Positions 15,654-23,302 of a DNA stretch of 23,302 nucleotides are shown here, one piece after another. Every line of letters starts with the position of its first letter. Within the stretch, counting starts at the first letter, position 1. Source of the DNA: a virus; IMG/VR virus record IMGVR_UViG_3300037234_000101, positions 1-23,302 of that record; one strand, given 5' to 3'. A program made the translations under genes and the position numbers. The notes under the pieces were generated by a model. It made no database searches. It was given only the letters and a program-made list of their open reading frames with translations, and was not told where the DNA came from.

Positions 15654-16001
15654 TTAGGTGGGACTTAGCTCTGTAATGGCGACTTCACCATTAGCATTCA
15701 ACGGAATGGCGTTAGTTTGTTCAGTAACTGGCCCTGAACCAACAGCAATCCTACCTGCCGCTGTAAGAGGCCAGCCATTTACAAAGATTACTGGCACATC
15801 AAACTCAATAGCCAGGAAACCAAGTGCGACAAAAGGAAGTCCTCTTGAAGTGCCAGTAATGGCGGCGACGCTGTCAACGCCAACAATTCCGTCATTGGTG
15901 ATGGGGATGCCGTTGGTGAAGGTATCGGTGGGACCTTCTTCTACAATGTGCATCAGGCCACCACCGTCGCGGGCTATACCTTCAAGTATCTTGCTAGCCA
16001 T
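15654..16001 (-). CDS. small beta-repeat virion protein
   Basis: A 115-residue protein, starting at ATG 16001 which overlaps the upstream stop (TGATG). It has three related beta-hairpin-like motifs: NGIPITNDGIVGV, VIFVNGWPLTAAGRIAV and NAIPLNANGEVAI. Similar motifs occur in the C-terminal part of the upstream 537-residue protein, so the two gene products probably pack together or share an origin. No cysteine or membrane segment. The opposite strand is also open along almost its whole length, but the operon context supports the - strand. Likely a small head or tail decoration protein; unproved. Confidence 0.65.
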   Translation of the reverse strand: MASKILEGIARDGGGLMHIVEEGPTDTFTNGIPITNDGIVGVDSVAAITGTSRGLPFVALGFLAIEFDVPVIFVNGWPLTAAGRIAVGSGPVTEQTNAIPLNANGEVAITELSPT

Positions 16002-17614
16002 CAGCTGATTAGGGCAGTGGTGAGCATCTTACTGTCTGGGTCAATAGCTCGGCCCCAGTTAAAGAAGCTTAGAGGGGGTGCAACGTATTCGACATTCTGA
16101 GCTCCCAAGTTTGTCACCTGCCATCCACCGACAACGTGGTCGCCTTCCAAGGTATTCTCTATTATCCTCACTCCGTCGTGCCTATGCGCTATTCCTCGAA
16201 TGTACACGCGGTCCATTGCCTCGTCATCGATCACAACGTAGAGTAGTCCTGCGTTAGTATGCGCCGTGCCCGCAATATATACAACATCAGCGGGTAAAGG
16301 AGTGGAGGGGACGAAGAGTACTACTGTACCCACAACACCCTCTGAGGTGAGCAACGTGCCAGCCAAGTGGATATTGTCTCCCAAATCGGTCGACGGAGCA
16401 ATAAGGTTCGCAGCAGTGCCGGTGATAACATACGCGCCTGCCTCTGCACCAATGACTCTCTGGTGCTTAAACGTGACAGCAGTACCAGTAACAGAGTACG
16501 AACCACTGACTGCATCAATGACACTGTGGTGTTGAAGATCGGCAGCAGTACCACTGACTGTATACGCACCACCGACTGCACCGAGTATCCTATTATACTC
16601 AGTATTAGCAGCCGTTCCTGTAACAGAGTACGCTCCTGCCTCTGCGTCGATAGCACCAGCAAGAAGTTTCTTAAGAGTGGCGTCAGTACCTGTGAGAGTG
16701 TATGCCCCAGCAACCGCTGTAAGGATAGAGTTATGTTCGAGATTCGCAGCAGTACCCGTGACTGAATACGCTCCAGCCACTGCATCAATTGCGCTGTGAT
16801 GCTCAAGTCCTGCTGCTGTACCAGAGATGGAGTAAACACCACCGACCGCATCAATGACACTATGATGCTCGGTGTTAGCAGCGGTACCAGAGATAGAGTA
16901 CGCTCCACCAACTGCGTCAAGAATTCTCTGGTGCTTGAAAGTAACGGGGGTGCCCGTAACAGAGTACGCACCACCGACTGCGTCAAGAACAGCACTGACT
17001 GTCGTAGTCGCATCCGTACCACTAATCGCATACGCGCCACTGACCGCGTCAATGACCCTGCTGTGCTTGAAAGTAACAGCAGTGCCAGAGAGAGAATAAG
17101 ACCCACCAACTGCATCAATGAGCCGATGGTGTTCGAGATTAGCAGCAGTGCCCGCAACAGAGTACGTCCCACTAACTGCATCAATTGCGCTATGGTGCTC
17201 AAGACTAGCGTCAGTACCTGTGACAGCATACGCGCCAGCAACCGCACCGAGTATTCGATTATACTCAGTATTGGCAGCGGTTCCTGTGACGAGATACGCA
17301 CCACTGACCGCGTCGATTGCTGAATGGTGTTGAAGATCAGCAGCGGTTCCTGAAATTGTATATGCGCCACTGACTGCATCGAGTACTGAATGGTGCTCAG
17401 TATTAGCATCCGTTCCACTGATTGAATACGAACCACCGGCTGCATCAATAGCCGAATGGTGCTCTGTATTCGCAGCAGTGCCAGTAACAGCATACGCTCC
17501 AGCCTCTGCACTAATCGTAACGGCGACCGCCGCCAAAAAGACGACACGCAGCCTTCTCGAAATAAGCTGGTGTTGGAGTCTATAGACTCCAACACCATGC
17601 GGAAATTTATCCAC
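16001..17614 (-). CDS. virion protein with about 17 tandem 22-residue repeats
   Basis: A 537-residue protein. Residues about 33-408 consist of some seventeen 22-residue repeats with consensus close to AIDAVGGAYSVTGTAANLEHHS; one unit has a 2-residue insertion. Gly-x-Tyr and the (S/T)GT(A/D) turn are nearly invariant, suggesting a stacked beta-strand fibre. Such GxYxxTGT repeats occur in phage structural proteins. Residues 409-537 have three strand-turn motifs (VYIAGTAHTNAG, VYIRGIAHRHDG). The GTG at 17614 is the only plausible start upstream of the repeat, but its ribosome binding site is weak and the first 30 residues include a 30-bp palindrome, so the true start may differ. Probably a head fibre or decoration; I cannot identify the partner. 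Confidence 0.7.
   Translation of the reverse strand: MDKFPHGVGVYRLQHQLISRRLRVVFLAAVAVTISAEAGAYAVTGTAANTEHHSAIDAAGGSYSISGTDANTEHHSVLDAVSGAYTISGTAADLQHHSAIDAVSGAYLVTGTAANTEYNRILGAVAGAYAVTGTDASLEHHSAIDAVSGTYSVAGTAANLEHHRLIDAVGGSYSLSGTAVTFKHSRVIDAVSGAYAISGTDATTTVSAVLDAVGGAYSVTGTPVTFKHQRILDAVGGAYSISGTAANTEHHSVIDAVGGVYSISGTAAGLEHHSAIDAVAGAYSVTGTAANLEHNSILTAVAGAYTLTGTDATLKKLLAGAIDAEAGAYSVTGTAANTEYNRILGAVGGAYTVSGTAADLQHHSVIDAVSGSYSVTGTAVTFKHQRVIGAEAGAYVITGTAANLIAPSTDLGDNIHLAGTLLTSEGVVGTVVLFVPSTPLPADVVYIAGTAHTNAGLLYVVIDDEAMDRVYIRGIAHRHDGVRIIENTLEGDHVVGGWQVTNLGAQNVEYVAPPLSFFNWGRAIDPDSKMLTTALIS
16391..17518 (-). repeat. 66-bp tandem repeat array (about 17 units)
   Basis: The DNA that encodes the 22-residue units. 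Adjacent units diverge at wobble and some coding positions but keep the period of 66 bp, with one 72-bp unit. The array leaves long stop-free stretches in several other frames on both strands, which are not genes. Confidence 0.9.
17568..17597. repeat. 30-bp perfect palindrome
   Basis: Each half is TGGTGTTGGAGTCTA or its exact complement, with no mismatch. In RNA it would form a 13-bp stem with a TATA loop. It lies 17-46 bases after the GTG at 17614, inside the predicted start of the repeat-protein gene. There is no T tract on either side, so it is not a standard terminator. Confidence 0.95.
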
Positions 17615-21606: not shown

Positions 21607-21636
21607 AAAAAAGTGGGTAGGGGCGAACCCCTACCC
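21607..21636 (-). terminator. strong intrinsic terminator after capsid gene
   Basis: On the - strand GGGTAGGGG pairs perfectly with CCCCTACCC around a TTCG tetraloop, followed by A, C and TTTTTT (21612-21607). This is a textbook Rho-independent terminator with a UUCG loop, 22 bp after the capsid stop. It should lower transcription of the genes further left relative to the capsid gene. Confidence 0.92.
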
Positions 21637-21657: not shown

Positions 21658-22635
21658 TTACGTCAGGTCAAAGAGGCGACCCTGGAATTGACGACCCGAG
21701 CAGGTCAGATTTCCGGCCCAGCCCAGGATCTGCACTTCAGCATCCTGGTTGATAGCGTACCGCTTACTCGGCATCAAGGCCACCATGTTCCGGTCCCTGT
21801 GCGGGCGCAGGAAGATGTACTTGGTGTTGAGCATCCACGCGGTGTCCGTCGGAGCGAACCCGCCGATACCACCGTCCAGAACGCAGTCGGCGTCCATGTA
21901 CTTGAGGGTCGGGAAGCCCAGCTTACCGACTTCGGTGCCGGCGAAACGCTGGAGGCTCTGCAGACTGGAAACGTAGAAGTTCCAGAATCCGGAATCCATC
22001 GGAATCAGATCGGGGCGGTCACTGCCTCGGACGAGGCTCGCCCATGCCTGGTTCATCAGGTTCTGGACGTTGGCTGCCGTGAGGTTGCCACTGTTGACCA
22101 CAGCCGAATCGAATGCACCCGAAGACCAGAAAGCGAAGGAGCCAGGGTCGATACCGCCATAGGTACCCACGCCGCTCTCGAGAACTGCGAGGTCCAGACC
22201 TTCCAGCTGCTTGCCACCGTCGCCGGTGCCATCGGAGTACACACCCTCGGAAAGCTGGTTCACCATTGTGGACTCCGCCACGGACAACCGGCCTTCCATA
22301 AGGTCAATCATACGCTCGCGGCCATTATTCTGGAGCATTTCCAGACCGGACATGACCACCGGAGTTGCCAACTGGCGAATGTTGTACTCGGCCGCGCTGA
22401 TGACGTCCTGCGCTGCCACGGGCAGGAGGTCGTAACCCGAATACCAACCGGCATTGGAGTTCTCGGCGAAGCTGAGTTCTTGATAGATAACGGATCCGCC
22501 ACCAAACGGCTTCACGTTGCCCCGATCTTCGAGGCGCTTGAGTAGCGCGTTGTTCTTGGTGACGTTATCCGCGATTTGCCGCGTACGACTCTCGATGGTC
22601 GTAGCGATGATGTCGGATACGTTTGGAAATGCCAC
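21658..22635 (-). CDS. major capsid protein
   Basis: A 325-residue protein I recognise as a phage major capsid protein of HK97-like type. The N-terminus (MAFPNVSDIIATTIESRTR) and the segments VIYQELSFAENSNAGWYSGY (about 49-68) and LLPVAAQDVISAAEYNIRQL (about 70-89) are characteristic of a family common in short- and long-tailed phages. The C-terminal region (RPHRDRNMVALMPSKRYAIN) carries the typical P-domain strands. It starts with GTG behind GGGAG, follows the scaffold gene and precedes a strong terminator. It forms the icosahedral shell around the scaffold core. Length fits the family. Confidence 0.92.
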   Translation of the reverse strand: MAFPNVSDIIATTIESRTRQIADNVTKNNALLKRLEDRGNVKPFGGGSVIYQELSFAENSNAGWYSGYDLLPVAAQDVISAAEYNIRQLATPVVMSGLEMLQNNGRERMIDLMEGRLSVAESTMVNQLSEGVYSDGTGDGGKQLEGLDLAVLESGVGTYGGIDPGSFAFWSSGAFDSAVVNSGNLTAANVQNLMNQAWASLVRGSDRPDLIPMDSGFWNFYVSSLQSLQRFAGTEVGKLGFPTLKYMDADCVLDGGIGGFAPTDTAWMLNTKYIFLRPHRDRNMVALMPSKRYAINQDAEVQILGWAGNLTCSGRQFQGRLFDLT

Positions 22636-22637
22636 GT

Positions 22638-22732
22638 TAGTCTCCCATAAATGAGTGGATACCTACTCGGTTTTCCTCTACTGGGCTGGGCTATGAACCC
22701 TTTGCTGTAGAGACTCCCCAAGCGGGAGACTA
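22638..22732 (-). promoter_or_regulatory. possible RNA switch sequestering the capsid ribosome binding site
   Basis: In the - strand transcript TAGTCTCCC at the scaffold stop (22732-22724) is exactly complementary to GGGAGACTA (22646-22638), which contains the ribosome binding site of the capsid gene. The same upstream arm can instead fold locally with GGGGAGTCT (22719-22711; 5 bp plus 2 bp with a mismatch). The two structures exclude each other. Translation to the scaffold stop would open the long-range helix. Inferred from complementarity only. Confidence 0.4.
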
Positions 22733-23302
22733 GTCCATGGCATTAGCATCAAAGGAAGCTTCCAAGGCTCCGCGGAGTGATGTGGACTTTGCTGCCGCAC
22801 GCCCTGCGTCTGGTGACGTACTGACAACTCCCACACTCTTCGCTTTCGCCGCTTTAGCCGCCTCGTCTTTTTTCTGAGCTTCGCTTTGCAGCTTACGCTC
22901 TGAGACGATCTGTGCTATGTCACTGTGCAACAATATAGCACGGTCGTATGCCTCTTGTAAAGTCATATTTTGGCTCCGCATTGCTGCGGCTTCCAAAAGA
23001 TTTGCCATATCACCTTTCACATCCATGTAAAATTCGTTTTCAGGTTTCTCTTTAAACGCAGCTATCTCCTCGTTTATATTGATCTGCTGAGTCTCAGCTT
23101 GAGTAACCTGCTGATTCTGGTAACTGCTCATGAATTGGTTGACAGGAGCCAGAGCCTTGTTGATGGCCTCTACTACGCCAGTGCCAGCTCCTGCTCCTGG
23201 TGGGGCACCCTGAATCTGCTTTGTAAGAATGCCGTCCAACTGCTCCACATCCACACCATACTGCTGAATGATTCCAGCTACAAGAGCGGCTTTCTCAGGA
23301 GC
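22730..23302 (-). CDS. scaffolding protein, C-terminal part (5' end outside window)
   Basis: The frame is open to the right edge, so 190 C-terminal residues are seen; a GTG at 23254 is internal. The protein is helical, with Gln/Glu/Ala-rich stretches (about 60-150) and a Lys/Ala-rich segment (KKDEAAKAAKAKS). A Pro/Gly/Ala linker (APPGAGAGTG) lies near residue 35 of the fragment. It directly precedes the major capsid gene, as scaffold genes do, and the C-terminus is charged, which in many scaffolds contacts the capsid. The stop lies 94 bp before the capsid start. Assigned from position and composition, not from a conserved domain. Confidence 0.72.
   Translation of the reverse strand, partial: APEKAALVAGIIQQYGVDVEQLDGILTKQIQGAPPGAGAGTGVVEAINKALAPVNQFMSSYQNQQVTQAETQQININEEIAAFKEKPENEFYMDVKGDMANLLEAAAMRSQNMTLQEAYDRAILLHSDIAQIVSERKLQSEAQKKDEAAKAAKAKSVGVVSTSPDAGRAAAKSTSLRGALEASFDANAMD

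Follow-up and report, generated by a model that had tools for sequence, protein, structure and literature searches.

In the RNA phage MS2, the replicase start is held in a long-range pairing, and translation of the coat gene upstream frees it. There the pairing partner lies inside the coat gene, unlike at the junction that we describe here, between a scaffold-like gene and a major capsid gene in a 23,302-nucleotide stretch of viral DNA (the window). How tailed phages balance scaffold and capsid at the RNA level is, to our knowledge, a largely open question. For TP901-1, the accessible text of one study goes no further than listing translational coupling among the possible reasons for polar effects (PMC4493119). 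In the systems covered by the accessible parts of a review (PMC12548453), as is proposed for the present junction, a downstream start is engaged in long-range pairing and freed by upstream translation, and the downstream product can exceed the upstream one, fivefold in the case of rplJL (quoted in PMC12548453 and PMC10666635); the available portion of PMC10666635 names such coupling upstream-translation-dependent de novo initiation. Unlike in the systems that this portion of the review describes, the partner here consists for the most part of the stop codon with the few bases that follow, and a separate covarying domain lies in between. Escherichia coli rpmI-rplT (L35-L20), as presented there, shares with our junction a positive spacing and an inhibitory structure at the downstream start, which upstream ribosomes prevent there and would prevent here, and differs from it in comprising ribosomal protein genes, in its pseudoknot (named in a reference title), and in a gap of +52 nt compared to 94 to 106 nt between stop and start, measured linearly, in our ten leaders (PMC12548453). 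The VII-IX junction of phage f1 is another phage junction with a hairpin before the downstream start, which upstream translation opens in f1, but it belongs to a filamentous phage, has a spacing of −4 nt and, in the same account, is without an anti-Shine-Dalgarno (anti-SD) sequence at a distant stop (PMC12548453). On our best reading, the kind of control is already known and the element itself is new; in a literature search with most subscription journals outside its coverage, no publication among the results listed dealt with this element, judging by titles and the openings of abstracts.

We consider it fairly probable, from sequence comparison and folding models, that the RNA of the scaffold-capsid junction links the translation of capsid to that of scaffold by unfolding. 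The two genes are encoded on the minus strand, with the scaffold-like gene upstream. Its 3′ part (22730-23302) is an open reading frame that is truncated by the end of the window and runs to a TAG at 22732-22730, and the major capsid gene (21658-22635) begins with a GTG at 22635-22633. The capsid protein matches phrog_9953, major head protein (E value of 1.6e-103), and is 57.9% identical to the major head protein of Mx8. We infer the name scaffold from the place of the gene and the composition of its product: the six full-length relatives that were read encode alanine-rich proteins of 366 to 394 amino acids, all six without cysteine and directly upstream of capsid, and the Mx8 counterpart lies between the portal and head protein genes. 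The scaffold-like protein gave no Pfam match above the cut-off, and its one profile match was a weak one, to a family of unknown function. By eye, a similar short motif recurs at both termini in five of the six proteins, as SLKESLEAAFD and SLRGALEASFD in L002 (1774-2904). Inside the scaffold-like gene of the window there is also a promoter-like site with an extended −10 (22932-22961, minus strand; 10 of 12 matches), which, if real, would yield a capsid transcript that lacks the beginning of the scaffold gene; at that stringency the region holds three such sites against 1.0 expected.

The original prediction, that the capsid SD is exactly complementary to the scaffold stop region, proved correct in its coordinates, and the pairing is larger than was described. 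On the minus strand, the anti-SD TAGTCTCCC (22724-22732), which contains the scaffold TAG, is the exact complement of the capsid SD region GGGAGACTA (22646-22638); read on the plus strand, TAGTCTCCC stands at 22638-22646 and GGGAGACTA at 22724-22732. In predicted folds of the window, this helix, H1, is extended past a small internal loop by nine pairs over the capsid start codon, with AATGCCATG at the end of the scaffold coding sequence (22736-22744, minus strand) pairing with CGTGGCATT, which covers the GTG (22636-22628, minus strand). The 121-nt leader of the window folds at −49.6 kcal/mol and its dinucleotide shuffles at −32.1 ± 3.2 kcal/mol (z = −5.4; none of 200 as stable), whereas the plus strand, opposite to the mRNA, reaches a z of only −1.5 over a 181-nt stretch, with 12 of 200 shuffles as stable. 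A 9-nt inverted repeat is by itself common—the window holds 29 with arms at most 150 nt apart, against a mean of 12.7 in 20 mononucleotide shuffles—and it is the placement and size of the stop:SD repeat that are unusual. As a duplex, the stop and SD regions of the window reach −32.3 kcal/mol (z = −6.0), and the seven clade junctions score −6.0, −5.1, −4.2, −4.0, −4.0, −3.5, and −0.9. Among the other 246 of 253 gene junctions on the contigs analyzed, where ORFs were called by a simple procedure and some are false, the strongest z was −3.8 and 3.7% reached −2.8; the four strongest were capsid junctions of other family members.

Relatives sharing this arrangement were collected by scanning IMG/VR with two capsid proteins, the upstream protein, and two DNA patterns, which gave at least ten distinct clade leaders, the window included. 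One pattern scan returned 23 stretches, 13 of them clade members by sequence or contig name and 10 unrelated, with L189 as the sole new leader. In a tree of 83 capsid proteins of at least 250 amino acids, the six clade members are monophyletic with a support of 1.0, and the support for their sister group is 0.095. The anti-SD is identical in all ten leaders. Three lines support burial of the capsid SD by the scaffold stop region, as originally predicted: this retention, the covariation of the enclosed domain, and the junction controls. L004 retains TAGTCTCCC although its frame already ended at a TAA directly before it, and it has the weakest pairing of the clade (z = −0.9; P = 0.16). In most leaders the upstream gene contributes little to the pairing beyond its stop codon. 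A more distant relative, L105, has the plan of the clade in other letters, with TAGCTCCTC pairing with GAGGAGCT.

The closed fold runs from H1 through H2, a 5-by-5 purine-rich internal loop, and H3 to an apical hairpin, P3, and this was the minimum-energy fold in all seven leaders folded. On the minus strand of the window, H2 pairs GCTTGG (22718-22723) with CCGAGT (22665-22670), and over the ten leaders 60 of 60 pair cells are standard and three of six pairs show a double change (at least as many in 8 of 2000 null runs). H3 pairs CTCTAC (22707-22712) with GTAGAG (22676-22681), with 59 of 60 cells paired and again three of six pairs doubly changed (5 of 2000). The hairpin P3, GGGTT-CAT-AGCCC (22688-22700), which was aligned by structure, has 53 of 54 cells paired and double changes in five of its six pairs (0 of 2000). 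Overall, 13 of the 31 pairs of the closed fold carry double compensatory changes compared to a null mean of 2.0, and 13 was reached in none of 2000 runs. These counts rest on a hand-made alignment, used because MAFFT alignments misplaced the SD, in which the structural placement of P3 biases towards pairing; the null is our own script rather than R-scape, with parsimony on a FastTree tree and substitutions moved among columns. Covariation in relatives, which the original prediction called for, was thus found for the domain that H1 encloses and not in the SD:anti-SD core, where no pair changes doubly because the core hardly varies: 77 of 80 core cells are paired in the ten leaders, one place alternates between G-C and G·U, and elsewhere in the core three leaders have a single T·T. 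The variable extension of H1 shows two double changes, a number matched by 38 of 2000 null runs, with only 15 of 30 cells paired, and lends weak support to H1 pairing. Standard pairs fill 284 of the 304 pair cells in ten leaders, and 23 of these are G·U, so that the fold reads on the mRNA strand and would have mismatches on the opposite one. Six of the ten leaders have an extra small hairpin (TAGG-TTCA-CCTA or similar) upstream of the SD. Rfam 15 gave no match at the gathering score for 15 sources and none for window positions 22560-22800 at E values up to 5, and the leader of L008 retrieved only an antisense microRNA model (E value of 0.41, far under its threshold).

How such a fold could couple the two genes is suggested by its geometry. 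In the free mRNA, the scaffold stop region would pair with the capsid SD, and in the window with the start codon too, closing the domain H2-H3-P3. A ribosome reading the last scaffold codons and terminating at the TAG would cover the anti-SD and thereby free the SD, at which another ribosome could start capsid, so that capsid could still outnumber scaffold. The scheme supposes a single mRNA spanning both genes, a capsid gene that would be silent without scaffold translation, and initiation by a new ribosome. Computationally, an inhibitory long-range pairing of the capsid start with the upstream gene is indeed predicted. We modeled a static footprint by masking 18 nt before the TAG and 9, 12, or 15 nt from its start. 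Comparing folds with and without it, as had been proposed, the cost of opening the capsid start drops in every one of the ten leaders. For the stretch from SD to start in the window, it goes down from 16.9 kcal/mol to between 6.5 and 7.3 kcal/mol, whereas a control footprint 36 nt upstream gives 18.0 kcal/mol there and shifts the cost by −0.9 to +1.8 kcal/mol over the ten leaders. The SD of the window nevertheless stays mostly paired, now with other partners: with the stop masked it is open with a probability of only 0.04 to 0.26. In L008 and L088 it is open at 0.67 to 0.75 with the 12- and 15-nt masks, and in L004 it falls from 0.34 to 0.08 with the 9-nt mask and stands at 0.87 with 15 nt. 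In these static folds, the geometry fits release by a terminating ribosome, and our models go no further than such a fit. Ribosomes finishing the scaffold gene would then probably switch capsid production on, and an element supported by covariation and having two short arms makes the coupling directly testable by reporters.

A further part of the original prediction was that the stop region can alternatively form a local hairpin, giving a switch between two folds. The hairpin, GTCTCCC / GGGAGAC, pairs completely in six of the ten leaders, whereas the other four each carry a single mismatch. The window belongs to these four: there it can form with six of seven pairs and a T·T, its 3′ arm being the internal-loop bases GGAGT (22713-22717, minus strand) with their neighbors. 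No covarying pair was seen in it among seven leaders. The open arrangement, whose energy was estimated from two parts folded separately, lies above the closed one by about 15 kcal/mol in the window, by 2 to 3 kcal/mol in L004 and L006, and by 5 to 12 kcal/mol in the other four leaders. With the mismatch, the lack of covariation, and this energy difference, the two-fold switch fares less well than burial of the SD; some relatives could have a two-state switch, but for the window it is unlikely at equilibrium. That the local hairpin keeps the SD open for a while after a ribosome has passed would be a speculative addition to the coupling scheme.

Beyond the clade, we compared capsid leaders across the wider Mx8-like family, in which 163 leaders comprised 86 distinct ones. 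Of these, 74 were taken for folding, and L057 gave an empty sequence without a meaningful value. Capsid starts with a leader have a mean SD openness of 0.18 (n = 73), compared to 0.41 for other starts on the same contigs (n = 281), and a fold z of −2.7 compared to −1.0, in sequences that are related, so that P values for this comparison are overstated. A stop-region anti-SD does not hold as a family-wide rule: the probability of SD:stop pairing exceeds 0.5 in just 10 of 72 leaders, six of them from the clade. The seventh clade leader, L009, reaches 0.37, scored with a wrongly chosen SD. Outside the clade, 4 of 65 leaders exceed 0.5; in most, the SD is buried by something other than the stop region, and several have long helices pairing it with other partners. 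This pattern gives some weight to an explanation that we consider unlikely, though still a serious competitor, namely, that a conserved RNA buries the capsid SD for another purpose, with capsid kept low until scaffold or capsid protein, a host factor, or timing opens the RNA, and that the scaffold stop is merely a convenient partner in the clade. Such a purpose is compatible with the stronger SD burial at family capsid starts, mostly by other partners, and with the conserved fold that a large group of leaders has of its own (see below). Against it stand the anti-SD in the stop region of all ten clade leaders and the in silico opening of the start when that stop is masked. Other lineages mostly use different partners to bury the capsid SD; burial may thus serve a purpose that predates coupling at the stop, which would be the version found in this clade.

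The large group just mentioned has in common a conserved, roughly 190-nt leader between the scaffold-like gene and capsid (L131:1814-2003 and 27 other loci, alignment A3), with the motif run GTGTGCC..AGCACC..AGCCACC..CGGACTG... Across the 28 aligned leaders, 18 of 41 predicted pairs show double compensatory changes. The helix before the SD occurs in two sequence forms, whose own pairing amounts to 6.9 and 5.3 bp and whose cross pairing amounts to 4.0 and 2.5 bp. One member searched against Rfam by E value met only microRNA models far below threshold, and the A3 leader is likely an undescribed RNA class. Leaders of L112, L110, L120, L125, and L152 (239 to 272 nt, before capsid) show, by eye, AGCCACC followed by GGACTC, twice per leader; an Rfam search by E value with that of L112 was empty. 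In other relatives the scaffold-capsid gap holds homing-endonuclease-like ORFs: L138:1617-1985 has a GIY-YIG match above the cut-off, L164:1402-1992 an HNH match (E value of 0.0018) under the Pfam cut-off, and those of L140, L058, and L136 are assigned by similar DNA alone. In L148, the gene after capsid (ORF start near 2184) is preceded by an upstream stop TGA in GTGATCTCCT, the complement of AGGAGATCAC at its SD (z = −2.8), which repeats the clade's plan at a different junction. With its structured capsid leaders, the family offers phage RNAs that are absent from Rfam. A broader proposal, possible but decidedly tentative, would be that capsid genes of this family are headed by lineage-specific, folded, SD-burying leaders, several of them undescribed RNA classes, of which the strongly conserved one of about 190 nt could be a sensor for an assembly protein or for some other signal. 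In the lineage of the window, the control would then be wired straight to the stop codon of scaffold, and a double-stranded DNA phage would use RNA folding to set the order in which scaffold and capsid are made and the ratio between them.

Termination-reinitiation, in which the folded H2-P3 would bring the stop near the start and the same ribosome would cross to capsid, seems improbable to us. With H2-P3 folded out, some 35 to 40 nt of unfolded RNA would separate stop and start, and at least seven relatives have the stop beside the SD, with gaps of 9 to 18 nt, where such coupling is usual. In the clade, in contrast, the genes neither overlap nor lie a very short gap apart, and at 94 to 106 nt reinitiation is less likely because about 20 nt almost abolished it in the six native pairs reported in the available text of PMC10666635. 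The element also presents an evolutionary contrast between relatives with the stop beside the capsid SD and relatives with a folded spacer that pairs both. We give as little credence to a hairpin serving the processing or stability of the capsid mRNA, as an RNase site or a protective fold, to which SD pairing would be secondary: folding is unusually strong across the family's capsid leaders (z below −2 for 59 of 72, mononucleotide shuffles), but such a role would leave unexplained the precise pairing of stop region and SD in each clade lineage. It is very improbable that the complementarity arose by chance or marks a feature of the DNA, for example a terminator or an operator, given the covariation, the G·U pairs on the mRNA strand, and the junction controls, despite the frequency of 9-nt inverted repeats in the window, and no intrinsic terminator (GC-rich hairpin with a T run) occurs on the minus, coding strand inside the leader, the terminator-like match at 22652-22669 being on the plus strand.

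Two further features of the window lie outside the junction. A terminator-like hairpin, GGGTAGGGG-TTCG-CCCCTACCC with a T run (21615-21636, minus strand), stands between capsid and the next gene, and among the structural genes a long ORF (16001-17614, minus strand) consists, by eye, mostly of repeats of about 20 to 25 residues (HHSAIDAVSGAYSVTGTA and similar).
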